Assembly: GCF_026410385.1 (NCBI RefSeq) | Contig: NZ_JAPMLT010000001.1 | Location: forward strand, 372,001-436,000 | DNA: 64,000 nucleotides | Direction of reading: 5' to 3' | DNA from: Tumebacillus lacus | Lineage (GTDB): Bacteria; Bacillota; Bacilli; Tumebacillales; Tumebacillaceae | In this document: positions 49,925-56,682 of the stretch, in pieces | How positions within the stretch are numbered: position 1 is the first letter of the stretch | How the letters are laid out: each line of letters begins with the position of its first letter | Translations under genes and position numbers: made by a program | The notes under the pieces: generated by a model | What the model was told of the DNA's origin: nothing | What the model saw: only the letters and a program-made list of their open reading frames with translations | Database searches by the model: none

Positions 49925-50506
49925 ATGCCAGCCATCCGGAACGTGGTTCTCCTTCTCGTGACTTGTCTCTCTTTGTTGACCGGATGTCAGTCTCCGGATC
50001 AACAGGCGCACGAGGAACCGCCTGCCATCCAAAAAGACGCGAAACGAGCCCGCCTATTGCAGCGGAAACAGCCTTTTCACGTTCCTTTGCAAGAGTTTGC
50101 CGAGCGGTGGAATGCCGTGTCTGCCGATATGGGATCAGAGCTGGTCATTCATGATCCGGCCGCGTTTCGCTGGCGGGCGGGCGGACGGTATACCTATGCG
50201 TTCCGCCCGGGACTCCGCCTTCGCTTGACGCCTGAACACGACAACACCGTCTCGAGAGTTGAAGTGATCAGTTCCGCCCGCACGATAGCGGAGCGTTATC
50301 AAATGCTCAGTGCCTGGGGCCAGGTCTTCACCATGAACCATCCGGAGACCCCTCCTTTCGAAGCGGACGCGTTGTTCCATAAACTAGGTGTGCGGCCGGA
50401 TGCCGATCTCACCCGGCTCACGTCATCCCCCGTCGAAGTGGAAGGCGTGCGCTATGAGATCGCTTCGCAAAAGAACACGCTGACCTTCCAGGCGAGCCTG
50501 TCATGA
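49925..50506 (+). CDS. Lipoprotein of unknown function
   Basis: About 193 residues. The signal sequence ends in the lipobox LLTGC (NVVLLLVTCLSLLTGCQSPD), so the protein is tethered to the membrane. The mature part (EFAERWNAVSADMG to the end) is a compact domain of mixed type with YTYAFRPGLRLRLTPEHD; I do not recognise a family. GAGGTG lies 6 nt before ATG 49925. It overlaps the GH18-SLH gene by 4 nt (ATGA), so it should be translated with it and probably works at the same surface. Confidence 0.8.
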   Translation: MPAIRNVVLLLVTCLSLLTGCQSPDQQAHEEPPAIQKDAKRARLLQRKQPFHVPLQEFAERWNAVSADMGSELVIHDPAAFRWRAGGRYTYAFRPGLRLRLTPEHDNTVSRVEVISSARTIAERYQMLSAWGQVFTMNHPETPPFEADALFHKLGVRPDADLTRLTSSPVEVEGVRYEIASQKNTLTFQASLS

Positions 50507-52143
50507 AAAAATCCAAACTCGCCGCCGTAATGGCCGCTGTATTCGGTCTGGTCTTCCTCACGATGCCGCTCTCCGTCACATCGTCGCAAACTCTGGAGGA
50601 TCGGTTCAATATGTCGTATCTTTTCTTCGGCTCCCCGACTTCTTATGTAGGCCAGGTAGACAAAACACAGAACAGCCTCGACGTCGTCTCTCCGAACTAT
50701 TTCGACATTCTCGAAGACGGCACGCTGAACATCACATGGAAACTGCAGTCTTCGTTTATTGACACGATGCACCGGCGCGGCATACGCGTCGTCCCGTTTT
50801 TGAGCAATCACTGGAACTACAAGGCGGGCACCCAAGCGCTTGCCAACCGGGAGGCGCTGGCTGCCAAAATCGCTGAAGCGGTCGACGCGTACCATCTGGA
50901 CGGCGTGAATGTCGACATCGAGGGCATCGGGCACGAGTATCGGGACGCCTTCACCGATTTGATCCGACTCTTGCGCAGTCATCTGCCGTCCGGCAAAGAA
51001 GTCAGCGTGGCCGTCGCAGCCAATCCGAACGGCTGGAATCTCGGCTGGCACGGCCTGTACGATTACGAAAGTCTTCACCCGCACACCGACTACCTCATGC
51101 TGATGACGTACGATGAAAGCTGGGAAGGCAGCGACCCGGGGCCTGTTTCAAGTCTCTCGTTTTTTGAGCGTTCCATCCAATATGCGATCAACAAAGGCGT
51201 GCCCAAAGAAAAGATCGTGGCCGGACTGCCTTTTTACGGCCGGATCTGGAAGACAGACGGGCCGACGCTGGACGGCCAAGAGATCATCGGCCTCGGTGTC
51301 TCCAACGTCCGCGTGCAACCGTTGGTCCAGCAATTCGGCGGAACGGTCGCCTTCGACGAAACGGCGCAAAGCGCCCACGTCACCCTGACCGTGCCGACAG
51401 GAGCGCAGTTTTATCTCGCCAACACCAAACTCAGCGCGGGACACTATCTGATCTGGTATGACAACGAACGAGCGATCAAAAGCAAGCTCTCAATACTCGG
51501 GAAATACGGCATCCGCGGCACCGGATCTTGGAGTTTGTACCAAGAGGAACCGGCGATGTGGAGCTATTATACCAACTGGCTAAACGGCCGCTTCTTCTCC
51601 GATGTCCCGGTGGAGCACTGGGCGGGTGAAAGCGTTCTGGCCGTGTCGGCGAAGGGCTGGATGAACGGCGTGTCGGGCACGTTGTTCGCTCCGCAGCAAC
51701 CGTTGACCCGCTCCCAAGCGGCGGTGATCTTGGTGCGGGCGCTGCGACTCGACCATCTGACGCCGAGTGCCCGCACCTTTACCGACACGCAGGGGCACTG
51801 GGCACAAGATCTGATCGAAGTCGCCCGCGAGCACGGCCTGATCAACGGCGTGGGCGCCCAGCGCTTTGCCCCCAACGATCCGATGACCCGCGAACAGCTC
51901 GCAACCCTGCTCAACAACGTCTTTCACTTCACACCGGGCGATGTGGCGCAAAGTCCGTTCACAGACGTCGATCCGAACCGCTGGTCCTACCCCAACATCG
52001 TGGCGATGCAGCAAAGAGGGATCATCACCGGGATCGGCCACGACCTGTTTGCCCCGACCGCACGATCCACCCGCTCGCAGGTGGCTGCGCTGATGTACCG
52101 ACTGGCAGCCGACATCGAAGCGGCTGCCGAGCAAAGGAGATGA
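50503..52143 (+). CDS. Secreted GH18 glycosidase with three SLH domains
   Basis: A 546-residue protein: signal peptide (about 1-27), GH18 catalytic domain (about 35-365) and three S-layer homology domains (about 368-540). The catalytic motif DGVNVDIE is complete with E140. SLH repeats begin FSDVPVEHWAG, FTDTQGHWAQDL and FTDVDPNRWSYP. It would cleave peptidoglycan or chitin-like glycans while bound to pyruvylated wall polymer. It overlaps the upstream lipoprotein gene and is followed after 7 bp by the subtilisin gene. Confidence 0.93.
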   Translation: MKKSKLAAVMAAVFGLVFLTMPLSVTSSQTLEDRFNMSYLFFGSPTSYVGQVDKTQNSLDVVSPNYFDILEDGTLNITWKLQSSFIDTMHRRGIRVVPFLSNHWNYKAGTQALANREALAAKIAEAVDAYHLDGVNVDIEGIGHEYRDAFTDLIRLLRSHLPSGKEVSVAVAANPNGWNLGWHGLYDYESLHPHTDYLMLMTYDESWEGSDPGPVSSLSFFERSIQYAINKGVPKEKIVAGLPFYGRIWKTDGPTLDGQEIIGLGVSNVRVQPLVQQFGGTVAFDETAQSAHVTLTVPTGAQFYLANTKLSAGHYLIWYDNERAIKSKLSILGKYGIRGTGSWSLYQEEPAMWSYYTNWLNGRFFSDVPVEHWAGESVLAVSAKGWMNGVSGTLFAPQQPLTRSQAAVILVRALRLDHLTPSARTFTDTQGHWAQDLIEVAREHGLINGVGAQRFAPNDPMTREQLATLLNNVFHFTPGDVAQSPFTDVDPNRWSYPNIVAMQQRGIITGIGHDLFAPTARSTRSQVAALMYRLAADIEAAAEQRR

Positions 52144-52150
52144 TCGCGCA

Positions 52151-53821
52151 GTGCACAAATCGATCGTCCTGATCCTGACCCTCGCCCTACTCTGCACATC
52201 GTGCGGCACGCGCGCGGCCGAGCCGGACACCTCCGCACGGATGCGCATTTCCCAGCAGACAACCCCCACCGGGCGGTACGTCATCCTGTTCAAAGATCGA
52301 AACGACCCCGCGCTCATCCAAAAATCCAGCGGGCAGCTCATCGATCACGTCGAGTCTCCGTATCTGCACATGATCACCGCGCTCCTCCCCGCTGCCGCCA
52401 TTCCTGTGCTGCGGGCAGACCAGGCGGTCGCAGCCGTCGAGCCGGACGTTGTGCAGGAGGTCAAGCCCCAGCACGTCGACTGGGGACACGCCAAAACACT
52501 CCTCCCGCAGGCCAACGCAGCCGGGCTGACCGGCAAAGGAGTGAAAGTGGCGGTGCTCGACACCGGCATCTCGTCTCATCCCGATCTGGTGCTGGCCGGG
52601 GGCGTATCCTGTGTCGAGTACACCTCCTCCTATGCGGATGACGACGGACACGGCACGCATGTGGCCGGTATCATCGCCGCGTTGAACAACGGGATCGGCG
52701 TCGTCGGTGTCGCACCGGATGCGCAGTTGTACGCGGTCAAAGTCCTCGACCAGACAGGCGAAGGATACACCTCCGACATCGTGGCCGGGATCAATTGGTG
52801 CATCACCAACGGGATGAACGTCATCAACATGAGCTTTGGCACCTACACCGGCTCCTACGCCATGACGATGGTCCTGCGTCAAGCGGTCGAAAACGGCATC
52901 CTCTGCGTCGCCGCAGGAGGCAACGAAGGCGACCCGGAGGGCGCCGGAGAGACGGTGAATTATCCAGGCCGCTATGAATCGGTGATCGCCGTCGCCGCGA
53001 CGGACGCGTACAACAGGCGCGCCCCCTTCTCGGCGTCAGGGTCGAAGATCGAACTGTCCGCTCCCGGTGTCAATGTGCTCAGCACCTATCCCGGCAACGA
53101 CTACGCCTATATGGACGGCACCAGCATGGCCGCCCCCTACGTGAGCGGGATCATCGCGCTGTGGAAGGAACGCTACCCCGACGCGACACCTGCCCGGCTG
53201 CGGCAGATCTTGCAGGGCACCGCACTCGATCTGGGCGCGGTGGGGCGCGATCCTTATTACGGCTACGGATTGGTGCAAAGCCCTGTCCTCTTTCGCGACA
53301 TCGCCGGACACTGGGCGGAACCGGAGATCCAATCCGCCTACGAACACGGTTGGCTGAGAGGCACTTCCCTGACGACCTTCACCCCAAACGGCTCACTCAC
53401 CCGTGCGCAGGCTGCCGTGATCTTGTCGCGAGCCTTGGCTCTGCCCCGCCTTGGAGGCGGCTCTCCCTTCGCCGATATCCCGGCGGGGCACTGGGCCCGA
53501 GATGAGATCGAACGCGCTTATCAAAACGGCGTCATGCAAGGGCTTGGCCCGATCACCTTTGCACCGAACGCTCCCGTGACAAGGGCACAGATGGCAGTGA
53601 TGCTCAGCCGGATCTTGAAATTGCCTGCGGACGAAACGTTGCCAAATCCCTATACAGATGTGTTTCCCGGCCATTGGTCGTATGCAGCCGTGCTCGCCGT
53701 GAGTGCCCAGAACATTTTTACCGGCATGACCGCGACCACGTTTGCCGGAGGGGACGTGCTGACGCGGGCGCAGTGCGCGACGCTGCTGAACCGGATCGCA
53801 GATCGGTTGCCGGCAAACTAA
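52151..53821 (+). CDS. Subtilisin-like protease (S8) with three SLH domains
   Basis: About 556 residues: export signal (1-25, with CTSC that may be lipidated), an I9-type propeptide (GRYVILFKDRND to VEPDVVQEVK), the S8 domain and three SLH domains (from about 375). The triad is complete: D137 in VAVLDTGIS, H167 in DGHGTHVAG and S325 in GTSMAAPYVSG. The start is GTG at 52151, with AAAGGAGA upstream. It is likely a wall-anchored protease that processes surface proteins, made together with the GH18-SLH protein. Confidence 0.94.
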   Translation: MHKSIVLILTLALLCTSCGTRAAEPDTSARMRISQQTTPTGRYVILFKDRNDPALIQKSSGQLIDHVESPYLHMITALLPAAAIPVLRADQAVAAVEPDVVQEVKPQHVDWGHAKTLLPQANAAGLTGKGVKVAVLDTGISSHPDLVLAGGVSCVEYTSSYADDDGHGTHVAGIIAALNNGIGVVGVAPDAQLYAVKVLDQTGEGYTSDIVAGINWCITNGMNVINMSFGTYTGSYAMTMVLRQAVENGILCVAAGGNEGDPEGAGETVNYPGRYESVIAVAATDAYNRRAPFSASGSKIELSAPGVNVLSTYPGNDYAYMDGTSMAAPYVSGIIALWKERYPDATPARLRQILQGTALDLGAVGRDPYYGYGLVQSPVLFRDIAGHWAEPEIQSAYEHGWLRGTSLTTFTPNGSLTRAQAAVILSRALALPRLGGGSPFADIPAGHWARDEIERAYQNGVMQGLGPITFAPNAPVTRAQMAVMLSRILKLPADETLPNPYTDVFPGHWSYAAVLAVSAQNIFTGMTATTFAGGDVLTRAQCATLLNRIADRLPAN

Positions 53822-53864: not shown

Positions 53865-54041
53865 TCAACCCTTCTGGTCGCAGATCGGACATTTCCCATC
53901 CCGGTAGCTCTGCTCGCGGAGTTCGATCCGTGAGAGGGCGCGGCCGCCCTCCAGGCCGTTTACGTAGCCAATGCGGCGTCCGACCGAGTAGCCGACCAGA
54001 ATCGAAAGCAGCAACAGCAGCAAGATCACGCCTGTGCTCAT
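53865..54041 (-). CDS. Small membrane protein with C-terminal CxxC (58 aa)
   Basis: An N-terminal membrane helix (TGVILLLLLLSILVGYSVG) is followed by a basic and charged tail that ends GKCPICDQKG. The CPIC pair could bind metal or act in redox. AAGGAGGAG lies 5 nt before the ATG, which overlaps the UbiA-like stop as ATGA. It is the last gene of the four-gene operon and ends at a terminator shared with the SLH protease gene. I know of no family for it. Confidence 0.78.
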   Translation of the reverse strand: MSTGVILLLLLLSILVGYSVGRRIGYVNGLEGGRALSRIELREQSYRDGKCPICDQKG

Positions 54042-54649
54042 CCAGACTCCTCCTTCCGACCTCGCAGTTCCAGCCCGGTGAGCAGTGACAGCACGATATG
54101 CACGAGCGGCATCGCCAGCATCACTTCCACCGTGCGCAGCGGCGAGAGCAGCACCGCCGCCAACAGACAGATGAACATCAGGATCGTCACCTCGACCAGC
54201 CCGTACCGCAACACGAGATTGTTCTGACCGGAGCGGCGGTCCTTTTGCACATCCATCAGATCATCGAGCAACTGGATCATCCCCATCGCGCACACCGCCC
54301 ACACCGTCAGCCAAAAGCCGCCGACAAGAACAGAGAGCAGCACCGCGAGGATCGATTCCAACCAACCGGGCAACTGCGTCGGCATCCGTTCCCGCAGATC
54401 ATGGCCCATCCCGATCGCATAGGCGGCAAAGAACAGCGTCAACGCCACCTCCGGAGCCAAGGCCATCGCCAAGGCCAGCGAGACCAGCGCATACGGCAGG
54501 CAGGCCCGCCCGAGGCGGATCGCCAGCGTGTGCCGGCCGATGCACTGGTCGTACTCGATGTCGAGCCAGTCATCCATCAATTTGATCGTCAGTCCCGCCA
54601 GCACGATGCCGAGAGTCTCGACCAGCAGGCTAGACCAGACGCCAAACAT
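54038..54649 (-). CDS. Short UbiA-like prenyltransferase homologue
   Basis: A 203-residue membrane protein with about six helices. Two aspartate-rich motifs, DDWLDIEYDQ near residue 27 and DDLMDVQKDRRSG near 130, match the Mg-diphosphate sites of UbiA prenyltransferases. Ordinary UbiA enzymes have about 290 residues and nine helices, so this is a reduced version. GGAGGTGAAAG lies just before the ATG. It overlaps the GTPase gene by 20 bp and the CxxC gene by 4 nt. Substrate unknown; a polyprenyl or geranylgeranyl transfer is inference. Confidence 0.8.
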   Translation of the reverse strand: MFGVWSSLLVETLGIVLAGLTIKLMDDWLDIEYDQCIGRHTLAIRLGRACLPYALVSLALAMALAPEVALTLFFAAYAIGMGHDLRERMPTQLPGWLESILAVLLSVLVGGFWLTVWAVCAMGMIQLLDDLMDVQKDRRSGQNNLVLRYGLVEVTILMFICLLAAVLLSPLRTVEVMLAMPLVHIVLSLLTGLELRGRKEESG

Positions 54650-55238
54650 GTTCTTTCACCTCCCGGAACCCGTGGCGGTACAAAGCGGAGATCGGCAGCA
54701 GGTTTACCCCTTTTAACTCCTTTTCCAGCAAGCGAAACCCGCGCTGCCCCTCGGGCAGATCCGTCTTGTTGACGAGGCAGAGATACCCGCTTTTGCGCTG
54801 GCCGATCTCGGCGACCTGCTGGTCGAGCTCGCCCAGTTTGCCAAGCCCTCCTGCCCTGTGGATCTCCGGCGCGTCCACCATGTGCAACACACAGTCCGCC
54901 TGTCGCAGTTGTTCCAACGTTTGCGCCATCGCCTCGCGCATCTCGAGATCGGTCGGAATGCCGTCTGCCAGTCCCGTCGAGTCGGTCAGTTTAAACTCGC
55001 GCACCCCTTTGCCGCGCGGCAGTTCCAGCGAGATGGACTGCAGATTGCGCGTCTTGTGGATGCCGCCGCCCGACAGTTCGTGGCGGGCTTTGACCATGTC
55101 GTATTTGCGTTGACGGGTGGTGCCGTCCGGCAGTTGAAAGAGGACCTCCATGCGGGTCAACCCGAGATACTCGGCGAAGTTGATGCAAAAGATCGTCTTA
55201 CCGACGTTGGTACGGCCCACCAAAAGACAGTTCTTCAT
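54630..55238 (-). CDS. Small Era/TrmE-like GTPase
   Basis: About 202 residues forming a single G domain: P-loop GRTNVGKT (8-15), G3-like DSTG, and NKTD as G4; ISALY may be G5. An insert, FQLPDGTTRQRKYDMVKARH, lies between P-loop and switch regions. No extra RNA-binding domain is present. GGAGGG lies about 10 nt before ATG 55238. Its start lies 41 bp inside the AAA ATPase gene and its end 20 bp inside the UbiA-like gene, implying coupled translation. Role unknown; probably acts with its operon partners at the membrane. Confidence 0.85.
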   Translation of the reverse strand: MKNCLLVGRTNVGKTIFCINFAEYLGLTRMEVLFQLPDGTTRQRKYDMVKARHELSGGGIHKTRNLQSISLELPRGKGVREFKLTDSTGLADGIPTDLEMREAMAQTLEQLRQADCVLHMVDAPEIHRAGGLGKLGELDQQVAEIGQRKSGYLCLVNKTDLPEGQRGFRLLEKELKGVNLLPISALYRHGFREVKEHVWRLV

Positions 55239-56226
55239 CTCGGGGTCCCTCCTCGAAAACCAGATCATCCGGCTCGATCTTCATCAACTCGTCACGGGTC
55301 GGATTGCGCGCTTCCAGCAACCGCACCGCTTGCAGGCGCACCGCCCGCTCAATCACGTTGCGCACCATCCGCGCGTTGCTGAAGTTCCGTTTTCCCTGCT
55401 GCTGCGTCGAATTGCGCAAGTAGGTGCGCAATTTTGACGATGACTCCGGCGACAGTTTGTATTCCCGTTTGCGCAGCATCGTATCGGCGATCTGCATCAG
55501 CTCTTGCTCCGTATAGTCTTCGAAGTTCAGCACGATGGGAAAGCGGGAAGGCAAGCCCGGATTGGTGCGCAGGAATTGTTCCATTTCCGTGTCGTACCCG
55601 GCGAGAATCAGGACAAAATCGTTTTTGTGGTCCTCCATCGCCTTTACCATCGTGTCGATGGCCTCTTTGCCAAAGTCTTTTTCCCCGCCGCGAGCCAGGG
55701 AGTACGCTTCATCGATAAACATGATCCCGCCCAACGCCTTTTTGACGTGGTCGCGGGTTTTTTGCGCTGTGTGCCCGATATATTCTCCGACGAGGTCTGC
55801 CCGTTCGACTTCCACGAGATGACCTTTTGATAGTACGCCCATTTCACGCAAAAGTTTTGCCAAGATTCGCGCGACAGTCGTCTTCCCCGTTCCGGGGTTG
55901 CCTTTGAAGATCATATGCAACACGATCGGCTCGGTGGCGAGTTTCGCCTGCTGGCGTTTTTGCTGGATCTGGATAAACGCGTAGATCTCCTTCACCAGCG
56001 TCTTCACCTGCCGCAGTCCGATCAATTGATCCAGCTCATTCATGATCGACTGAAAGCGTTGTTTATCGGTCGGAGTCGAGCGGTGCGCATCGCGGAGGAT
56101 CGGCGTATGCGACCCATGCAGTTTGCGTAGTGCTTCATTCAAAGCCACCTCCCCGTTGCGGAACTGATCGATCACATCAACCGACGAGCCCCCGCCCCGC
56201 TGAGGCGGCCTTTGACCGCTCCTCAT
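55198..56226 (-). CDS. spoVK: SpoVK/CbbX-type AAA ATPase
   Basis: About 342 residues from ATG 56226 (GTG 56229 is an alternative with better spacing to GAGGTGG). Walker A is FKGNPGTGKTTVARILAKLL, Walker B GGIMFIDEAYSL, with sensor segment LAGYDTEMEQFL and arginine finger region NPGLPSRFP. SpoVK is a mother-cell sporulation protein; CbbX relatives remodel Rubisco. A short N-terminal helix precedes the AAA domain, as in SpoVK. It heads an operon with a GTPase, a short UbiA-like protein and a CxxC peptide, which is not the usual SpoVK setting. Confidence 0.88.
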   Translation of the reverse strand: MRSGQRPPQRGGGSSVDVIDQFRNGEVALNEALRKLHGSHTPILRDAHRSTPTDKQRFQSIMNELDQLIGLRQVKTLVKEIYAFIQIQQKRQQAKLATEPIVLHMIFKGNPGTGKTTVARILAKLLREMGVLSKGHLVEVERADLVGEYIGHTAQKTRDHVKKALGGIMFIDEAYSLARGGEKDFGKEAIDTMVKAMEDHKNDFVLILAGYDTEMEQFLRTNPGLPSRFPIVLNFEDYTEQELMQIADTMLRKREYKLSPESSSKLRTYLRNSTQQQGKRNFSNARMVRNVIERAVRLQAVRLLEARNPTRDELMKIEPDDLVFEEGPRDEELSFGGPYQRR

Positions 56227-56229
56227 CAC

Positions 56230-56682
56230 GTTGGCTTCCACCTCACTTTTTGAGAGATTGTTACAAGGTATGATGCAAGGGGTGAATGGGTGATTGCCCA
56301 AGGGGGATCTTTTAATCCCGTACCTTCTCTTCATTAAATAAGCATGAGACCAAGTTTGTCCTTTCAATGAATAAATATAAACATCGTCGCAGGACCGATT
56401 CGATGTGCCGCTCGCCTGTTTTATAAATGCCCTTACCGATTGCGTGCAACCGCTTTCAAGCGTGATCCCGCATGCTGACTGGTGTTGTGAGTTGTGCGAC
56501 ATTCAATTTAACGCTTTATCACGATCCAGAGCTACTGAATTGAAACTATTCAAAAATATTCATTCCACCATAAAAATATTCGGAAAATTAGTTGACAGAA
56601 AGTTTTGGTATGGTGTAGATTTCTTGCAAGGGCGACACAAAAACAAAAAAAACGCCCTCGAACAAAAGGGAGGAATTACCAA
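56230..56682. other. Intergenic region between spoVK-like and protease genes
   Basis: About 450 bp, AT-richer than the flanks, holding divergent promoters. TTGACA at 56592-56597 with TAGATT at 56616-56621 (18-bp spacer) may serve the protease. On the minus strand CATACCTT near 56260-56270 loosely resembles a sporulation -10 box. No coding frame is convincing. Confidence 0.5.

Follow-up and report, generated by a model that had tools for sequence, protein, structure and literature searches.

We describe here a four-gene operon led by the sporulation gene spoVK in a 64,000-nucleotide stretch of DNA from Tumebacillus lacus (the window). Behind spoVK stand genes for a GTPase, for a small UbiA-like membrane protein (mini-UbiA) and for a membrane peptide with a CxxC motif. 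The order and linkage of these genes are conserved across the phylum, the GTPase and the aspartate (Asp) motifs of mini-UbiA are intact, and SpoVK co-occurs with the UbiA-like protein; in addition, a sequence signal for a sigma-K promoter precedes spoVK in about half of the lineages. As a tentative reading, to which we give somewhat less than even weight, we propose an old mother-cell sporulation operon in which mini-UbiA would handle a polyprenyl carrier for the spore cortex together with the CxxC peptide, the GTPase and SpoVK. The four genes are:

55198-56226, minus strand: spoVK, AAA+ ATPase, first gene of the operon, ATG start, uninterrupted here
54630-55238, minus strand: GTPase gene, TRAFAC-type, 202 amino acids, undescribed family, ATG start
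54038-54649, minus strand: mini-UbiA gene, UbiA-like membrane protein, 203 amino acids, ATG start
53865-54041, minus strand: CxxC peptide gene, 58 codons for 58 amino acids, one transmembrane helix

These coordinates confirm the four overlapping minus-strand genes described in an earlier note on this DNA, with overlaps of 41 base pairs (bp) between spoVK and the GTPase gene, 20 bp between the GTPase and UbiA genes and 4 bp between the UbiA and CxxC genes.

The gene order is conserved across the phylum

All 14 genomes searched in the order contain a UbiA-like protein. A single-sequence query detected it in 45 of 398 genomes sampled from the class (two of these being weak, stop-broken matches), and a profile in 91 of 398 sampled phylum genomes. 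The UbiA profile scan gave 76 loci from Tumebacillus, Alicyclobacillus, Sporomusa, Pelosinus, Anaerospora, Propionispora and Lucifera, from Thermovorax, Fervidicola and Thermohalobacter and from many uncultured Bacillota; thermophilic anaerobes are represented. A match to SpoVK was present at 74 of these loci, and the GTPase, UbiA and CxxC genes occurred jointly at 70. The six exceptions are L091 and L117, where the GTPase gene is split by a frame change, L127, L131 and L133, where no CxxC gene was recognised, and L063 of T. flagellatus, where UbiA and CxxC are located away from spoVK; furthermore, SpoVK lies 4.8 kilobases (kb) distant in L127, and the CxxC gene comes ahead of UbiA in L114. 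Recurring neighbours of the module are mutL, miaA and hfq upstream and hflX, glnA and lexA downstream. Because the same order recurs across the phylum, we rejected chance or a merely local gene order as its explanation; the homologues are linked rather than scattered, which bears out the conserved order on which the earlier note had staked its reading.

At the spoVK-GTPase site of T. flagellatus (L012 1381-1599, minus strand; L011/L063) we observed what is left of a UbiA gene, shortened and joined to a CxxC-like tail, which looks like recombination between the two repeat halves.

Co-occurrence was counted in the first 40 UbiA-positive and the first 40 UbiA-negative genomes, taken in handle order from the 398 phylum genomes. 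SpoVK (E<=1e-80) was present in 40 of 40 UbiA-positive versus 26 of 40 UbiA-negative genomes (Fisher p 3e-5), and SpoIVA (E<=0.001), a poor discriminator alone, in 40 of 40 versus 34 of 40 (p 0.026). UbiA lies 599-821 bp from SpoVK in 34 of the 40 UbiA-positive genomes, which leaves room for one GTPase; among the other six, the distance is 3.6-16 kb in five, and in one UbiA is on a separate contig.

In a set of other Bacilli, 31 of 35 genomes were matched and 30 spoVK loci were read. No UbiA gene was seen at any of the 30; next after spoVK comes hflX, the GTPase gene on its own or some other gene. The spoVK-GTPase arrangement accounts for 11 of them; a profile search found no UbiA in these 11 genomes, and no CxxC gene was seen at their loci either. 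An HflX-like gene comes next in 13 of the remaining 19, as judged by sequence (two were NCBIfam-confirmed). The Bacillales genomes that the earlier note had recommended for comparison proved too narrow a field, with 30 loci of other Bacilli lacking UbiA. Because the UbiA and CxxC genes are both absent behind spoVK-GTPase in the 11 Bacilli loci and both relocated in T. flagellatus, they appear mostly to travel together. In one genus of the Alicyclobacillaceae no CxxC gene was recognised; there, L170 has lost both UbiA Asp motifs and L169 keeps them. The simplest reading of these loci would be that the order spoVK-GTPase-UbiA-CxxC-hflX is ancestral and that genes were lost step by step in the direction of Bacillus; gain by horizontal transfer is a possible alternative.

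Mini-UbiA is a reduced relative of the UbiA superfamily

Mini-UbiA matches PF01040 with 38.4 bits against a cut-off of 34.2, and the same family was matched by 46 of 63 relatives at E<=0.1. Its AlphaFold2 model is confident (predicted local distance difference test, pLDDT, 94.4; predicted template modelling score, pTM, 0.89) and has seven long helices, short of the eight or nine transmembrane helices typical of canonical UbiA. The model aligned with AfUbiA residues 43-235, the canonical first helix and last part being missing. Because of the seven helices and the restricted aligned part, the modelled protein is best described as a relative of the UbiA superfamily and not as a canonical UbiA. 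The top Foldseek rows were isoprenoid synthases and UbiA homologues, all weak (E 0.099 or worse), and the VIA-align Z of 6 to 8 is a level that chance reaches among helical bundles.

The protein carries two Asp-rich motifs, identified from sequence and alignment:

54548-54574, minus strand: first Asp motif, DDWLDIEYD, residues 26-34
54239-54265, minus strand: second Asp motif, DDLMDVQKD, residues 129-137

The consensus motifs reported for UbiA are NDxxDxxxD and DxxxD, and such motifs bind prenyl diphosphate together with Mg2+ at the cytosolic side (PMC4106721). In keeping with this consensus, the window has DDxxDxxxD twice, with D in place of N in motif 1. In an alignment of the window protein with 62 proteins from the loci (truncated, frame-split, short or near-duplicate rows left out), D26, D30, Y53, Y77, G80, M81, E98, D129, D133 and G150 are invariant, and D27, D130 and D137 are each kept in at least 90% of the 63 sequences. 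Across the loci, motif 1 in the form D-[DNE]-xx-D occurs in 76 of 76 and motif 2 as DDxxD in 73 of 76; the last Asp is also kept, in 61 and 73 of the 76, respectively. A reduced UbiA with Asp motifs, as the earlier note had it, is therefore supported, and the gene is neither confined to this genome nor disrupted in its motifs, which are kept phylum-wide.

The two halves of mini-UbiA are homologous to each other (hhalign probability 98.3%, E 2.2e-14, compared with 1.9% for a reversed control and 0.1-0.2% for five column shuffles), and both match the second half of PF01040. Comparison with canonical UbiA was weak, the best probability being 73.5% for the second half and 59.1% for the whole; a duplication origin has been suggested for canonical UbiA as well (PMC4106721). 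With two homologous halves in about 200 residues, mini-UbiA may reveal a minimal version of the UbiA fold.

The partner proteins of the operon

The CxxC peptide has one transmembrane helix with a GxxxGxxxG stripe and a CxxC tail:

53880-53891, minus strand: CPIC (CxxC) motif, both cysteines invariant in 24 sequences

CxxC was present in 73 of 73 relatives read, with the CPxC form in 39, in line with the CxxC membrane peptide of the earlier note. Lysine and arginine are richer after the helix than before it in 70 of 72 relatives, and by the positive-inside rule the tail of these 70 is predicted to be cytosolic. Pfam searches with 24 members gave only two single weak matches. In L131 (7049-8008, uncultured) a 319-amino-acid UbiA-like frame ends in an extra hydrophobic helix followed by YRRGRREG; this tail resembles the CxxC peptide minus its cysteines and is possibly a natural fusion.

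The window GTPase matches MMR_HSR1 with 37.8 bits against a cut-off of 21.9, and both the G motifs and the fold of TRAFAC GTPases are present. Its AlphaFold2 model (pLDDT 93.2, pTM 0.90) was matched by Foldseek to Nog1-like, Era and HflX G domains (E 1.5e-9). An alignment of 52 locus proteins plus the window, filtered in the same way as that of the UbiA-like proteins, showed G8, N11, G13, K14, D86, G89, N157, K158, D160 and A185 to be invariant in all 53 sequences. No listed NCBIfam equivalog cut-off was reached by the window GTPase (HflX 40.6 vs 216.75, Der 27.8 vs 306.7). We rejected the idea that it is a piece of HflX: the match is confined to the shared G domain, with a score far below the HflX cut-off, and HflX itself recurs downstream. 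In Thermovorax (L091 6395-6987) and Fervidicola (L117 6392-6987) the GTPase gene switches frame at an A run (10 and 12 long) at the same place, from either transcript slippage or sequencing error.

Window SpoVK passes TIGR02881 (430.4 bits against a cut-off of 422.95) and also matches PF00004 and PF17866; the remaining AAA matches in the same genome are at most 45% identical to it. The TIGR02881 cut-off was passed in 10 of 80 phylum genomes (six UbiA-positive, four UbiA-negative), the rest scoring 355-423 bits. SpoVK of B. subtilis, an AAA+ protein of the mother cell, has been reported to bind MurG, to promote MurG and lipid II, and to be required for the cortex precursors to flow normally (PMC10659427).

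Translation of mini-UbiA is probably coupled to that of the GTPase

In the window, GAGGAGGG stands ahead of the GTPase ATG, and a second ribosome-binding signal lies inside the GTPase gene:

54656-54663, minus strand: Shine-Dalgarno sequence of mini-UbiA, GGAGGTGA, within the GTPase reading frame, ahead of the UbiA ATG

Of the 73 loci in which both the GTPase and the UbiA gene were read, 66 have an overlap of 20 bp, start codons having been picked by a script that favours a Shine-Dalgarno sequence. At these 66 loci the Shine-Dalgarno sequence of UbiA lies in two GTPase codons, the one being GAG in all 66 and the other GTG in 59, compared with gene-wide usage of 53% for GAG and 41% for GTG (p 1e-18 and 2e-16, related genomes being treated as independent). 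Because the overlap is conserved and these codons are kept, translational coupling from GTPase to UbiA, under selection, is likely. The same two findings support the co-translation claimed by the earlier note; that it is strict can only be presumed.

A sigma-K promoter signal precedes spoVK

The window carries one candidate promoter ahead of spoVK:

56264-56291, minus strand: sigma-K-like promoter AC-N17-CATACCTTG, one mismatch to consensus

The aligned site is exact in T. avium (L062), has one mismatch in T. permanentifrigoris (L064) and is not found in L065. We searched regions of 340 bases upstream of spoVK for the consensus AC-N15-17-CATANNNTA; the count covers 43 regions with uninterrupted spoVK, 13 of the 76 loci being unscored. 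Exact sites occur in 19 of the 43 regions, compared with a mean of 0.38 and a maximum of 3 in 100 shuffles, and in 200 draws of 63 random stretches from the scored loci the mean was 0.685 and the maximum 4. The spacing is 17 in 17 of the 19 sites, and the sole peak along the loci is the 500-base bin upstream of spoVK, with 22 matches versus 0 to 2 in every other bin. Patterns for other sigma factors were counted in 64 regions, 21 of which adjoin an interrupted spoVK and hence are not its real upstream; no clear signal was seen there for sigma-E (0 of 64 with a relaxed pattern and 1 with a strict one, against shuffled means of 0.65 and 0.15), sigma-F/G (2 against 2.43 in shuffles) or sigma-A (1 against 1.36). 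Sigma-K promoters have AC as their -35 element and sigma-E promoters ATA (PMC3789822), and B. subtilis spoVK has been reported to have a promoter of each kind, the sigma-E one being dispensable (PMC517825). Taken together, the sigma-K sites and the co-occurrence with SpoVK support the sporulation operon suspected in the earlier note.

spoVK appears interrupted in some relatives

At 22 of the 76 loci (L067, L069, L072, L082-L085, L092, L099, L101-L104, L107, L108, L111, L113, L115, L118-L120 and L126), the rear part of spoVK alone, from query residue ~178-190 on, adjoins the GTPase gene. The front part was reached in 7 of the 22, at 3.1-5.2 kb upstream, and in three further stretches (L172-L174) at 3.7, 13.2 and 14.3 kb, one of these being apparently on the same contig as L069; where no front part was reached, we infer the interruption. 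In the 7 loci of the main set, the break falls within AID-x-(M/L)-V-K, from window residue 189 onward, and the window has an intact matching site near 55662. A recombinase gene was recognised in 16 of the 22 loci, all 16 with large serine recombinase domains; in the seven Alicyclobacillus loci it adjoins the rear part of spoVK on the same strand, and the nine others, from Sporomusa, Pelosinus and their relatives, have it on the other strand. By analogy with the skin element, a developmental rearrangement of spoVK with predicted excision is likely. If the DNA is excised, the three downstream genes would stay cut off from the spoVK promoter until excision.

A possible role in lipid carrier supply

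Beyond a conserved mother-cell sporulation operon, every step of the mechanism that we propose is conditional. The proteins would act late in the mother cell, on the cytosolic side of the outer membrane of the forespore. Mini-UbiA would bind polyprenyl phosphate or diphosphate via Mg2+ held by its two Asp motifs, the lipid most likely being the undecaprenyl carrier of lipid I and II, and would convert, recycle or hold this carrier for cortex synthesis. The CxxC peptide would accompany mini-UbiA in the membrane as a small partner and might form dimers around a shared metal, the GTPase would be the switch of the complex, and SpoVK would remodel or activate cortex enzymes there, MurG included. 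We connect the module with the lipid I/II carrier because SpoVK acts with MurG, because YabQ/ShfA recognises undecaprenyl phosphate at the same membrane according to a 2026 preprint (PMC13232292), and because UbiA-type Asp motifs are cytosolic, a side that they share with SpoVK, the GTPase and the CxxC tail. We regard as doubtful a bolder version, in which the three genes are a lost branch of cortex control, a GTP-switched, metal-linked mini-UbiA processing the undecaprenyl carrier at the outer forespore membrane, ancestral to endospore formers and dropped in the Bacillus line, and in which, in some of the lineages, the entire operon becomes armed only once a recombinase has excised an element from spoVK in the mother cell.

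A number of observations weigh against a role in carrier handling. The best Foldseek row that is a UbiA protein has E 0.18, behind the best row overall at 0.099, and with seven helices, fewer than the usual eight or nine, catalysis could have been lost. SpoVK has no general need of the module, since 26 of the 40 UbiA-negative genomes retain it and B. subtilis sporulates without the module, and L169 retains both Asp motifs without a recognised CxxC gene. An exact sigma-K site is absent in 24 of the 43 regions upstream of uninterrupted spoVK, and it was found in 0 of 10 interrupted loci scored at their real upstream (7 of the 76 and the 3 further ones; L092 gave only 216 bases). The sequence itself does not identify the lipid as undecaprenyl, and the activity, localisation and interactions of the module are predictions.

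Some of these points would also fit a non-catalytic mini-UbiA that forms, with the CxxC peptide, a membrane dock binding polyprenyl phosphate and recruiting the GTPase and SpoVK to the forespore. The missing first helix and end of the UbiA-matching part, the small partner peptide, the weak fold match and the absence of the last Asp of motif 1 in 15 of the 76 loci, which also speaks against carrier handling, are consistent with such a dock; however, DDxxD-type motifs are kept in both halves and suggest Mg-diphosphate chemistry, and we consider the dock rather unlikely. The two Asp-rich motifs, as in UbiA enzymes, and the PF01040 match would suit a genuine prenyltransferase, with a small molecule as acceptor of the prenyl chain and a spore-specific lipid or quinone as product. 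Against it, no acceptor-making gene is prominent among the recurring neighbours, and when 80 of the 91 UbiA-positive genomes were searched with PF01040 (E<=1e-8), 18 had no other PF01040 protein, which makes an ordinary MenA/UbiA quinone pathway unlikely there. For this latter reason we disfavour a role in a spore quinone, and the quinone modification offered by the earlier note is not supported; a prenyltransferase as such seems quite unlikely to us. Improbable, finally, is a bystander operon whose genes have nothing but a late mother-cell promoter in common with spoVK and serve some other process in the spore: SpoVK functions in B. subtilis without the three genes, UbiA and CxxC lie apart from spoVK in T. 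flagellatus, and 6 of 40 genomes have UbiA at a distance of at least 3.6 kb or on a separate contig, but the overlapping genes stay together across the phylum and SpoVK is missing from none of the 40 UbiA-positive genomes.

Downstream of the operon, on the opposite strand, a GH18 glycosidase gene (50503-52143) and a subtilase gene (52151-53821) adjoin each other; the two proteins have three S-layer homology repeats apiece.

Comparison with known systems

Sporulation is known mostly from B. subtilis, whose spoVK locus we take to lack the GTPase, mini-UbiA and CxxC partners (similar Bacilli loci agree), so that model genetics could hardly have found these genes. Three unstudied genes beside spoVK in many spore formers may be a missing part of mother-cell spore-wall building, and the module makes testable how lipid carrier supply is tied to GTP/ATP control in cortex building. 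We found no description of the spoVK-GTPase-UbiA-CxxC set in the literature searched, and the earlier note likewise knew of none. In the text of PMC10659427, UbiA and prenyl are absent and GTPase occurs in two reference titles only; the gene orders of its Figure 3A, the legend of which gives ZnBd as zinc-binding, might include the set. Nor did we find in the literature searched a report of interrupted spoVK with a recombinase, the nearest concerning skin.

The skin element likewise cuts a mother-cell sporulation gene, sigK, with recombinase-carrying DNA (PMC517825); here, the target is spoVK, in genomes other than that of the window, and excision is a prediction. The SpoVK-MurG cortex system of B. 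subtilis has the same AAA+ protein, sporulation-specific and in the mother cell (PMC10659427). For YabQ/ShfA, too, a role with the lipid carrier has been proposed at this membrane, where MraY, MurG and SpoVK are its neighbours, but it is described as a three-helix YabQ domain and has no connection with the genes of the module (PMC13232292). Many Bacilli have spoVK followed by hflX, and at such loci the GTPase, mini-UbiA and CxxC genes are absent. The window GTPase has the same TRAFAC core as HflX, Obg, Era and Der; unlike these, it is a lone G domain and falls below each listed equivalog cut-off. Likewise, mini-UbiA has in common with AfUbiA, DGGGP synthase and MenA two Asp-rich motifs, a PF01040 match and a pseudo-twofold layout, but differs from them in its length of ~200 amino acids, its seven long helices, its weak fold score and its recognisably homologous halves, each with a DDxxD-type motif.

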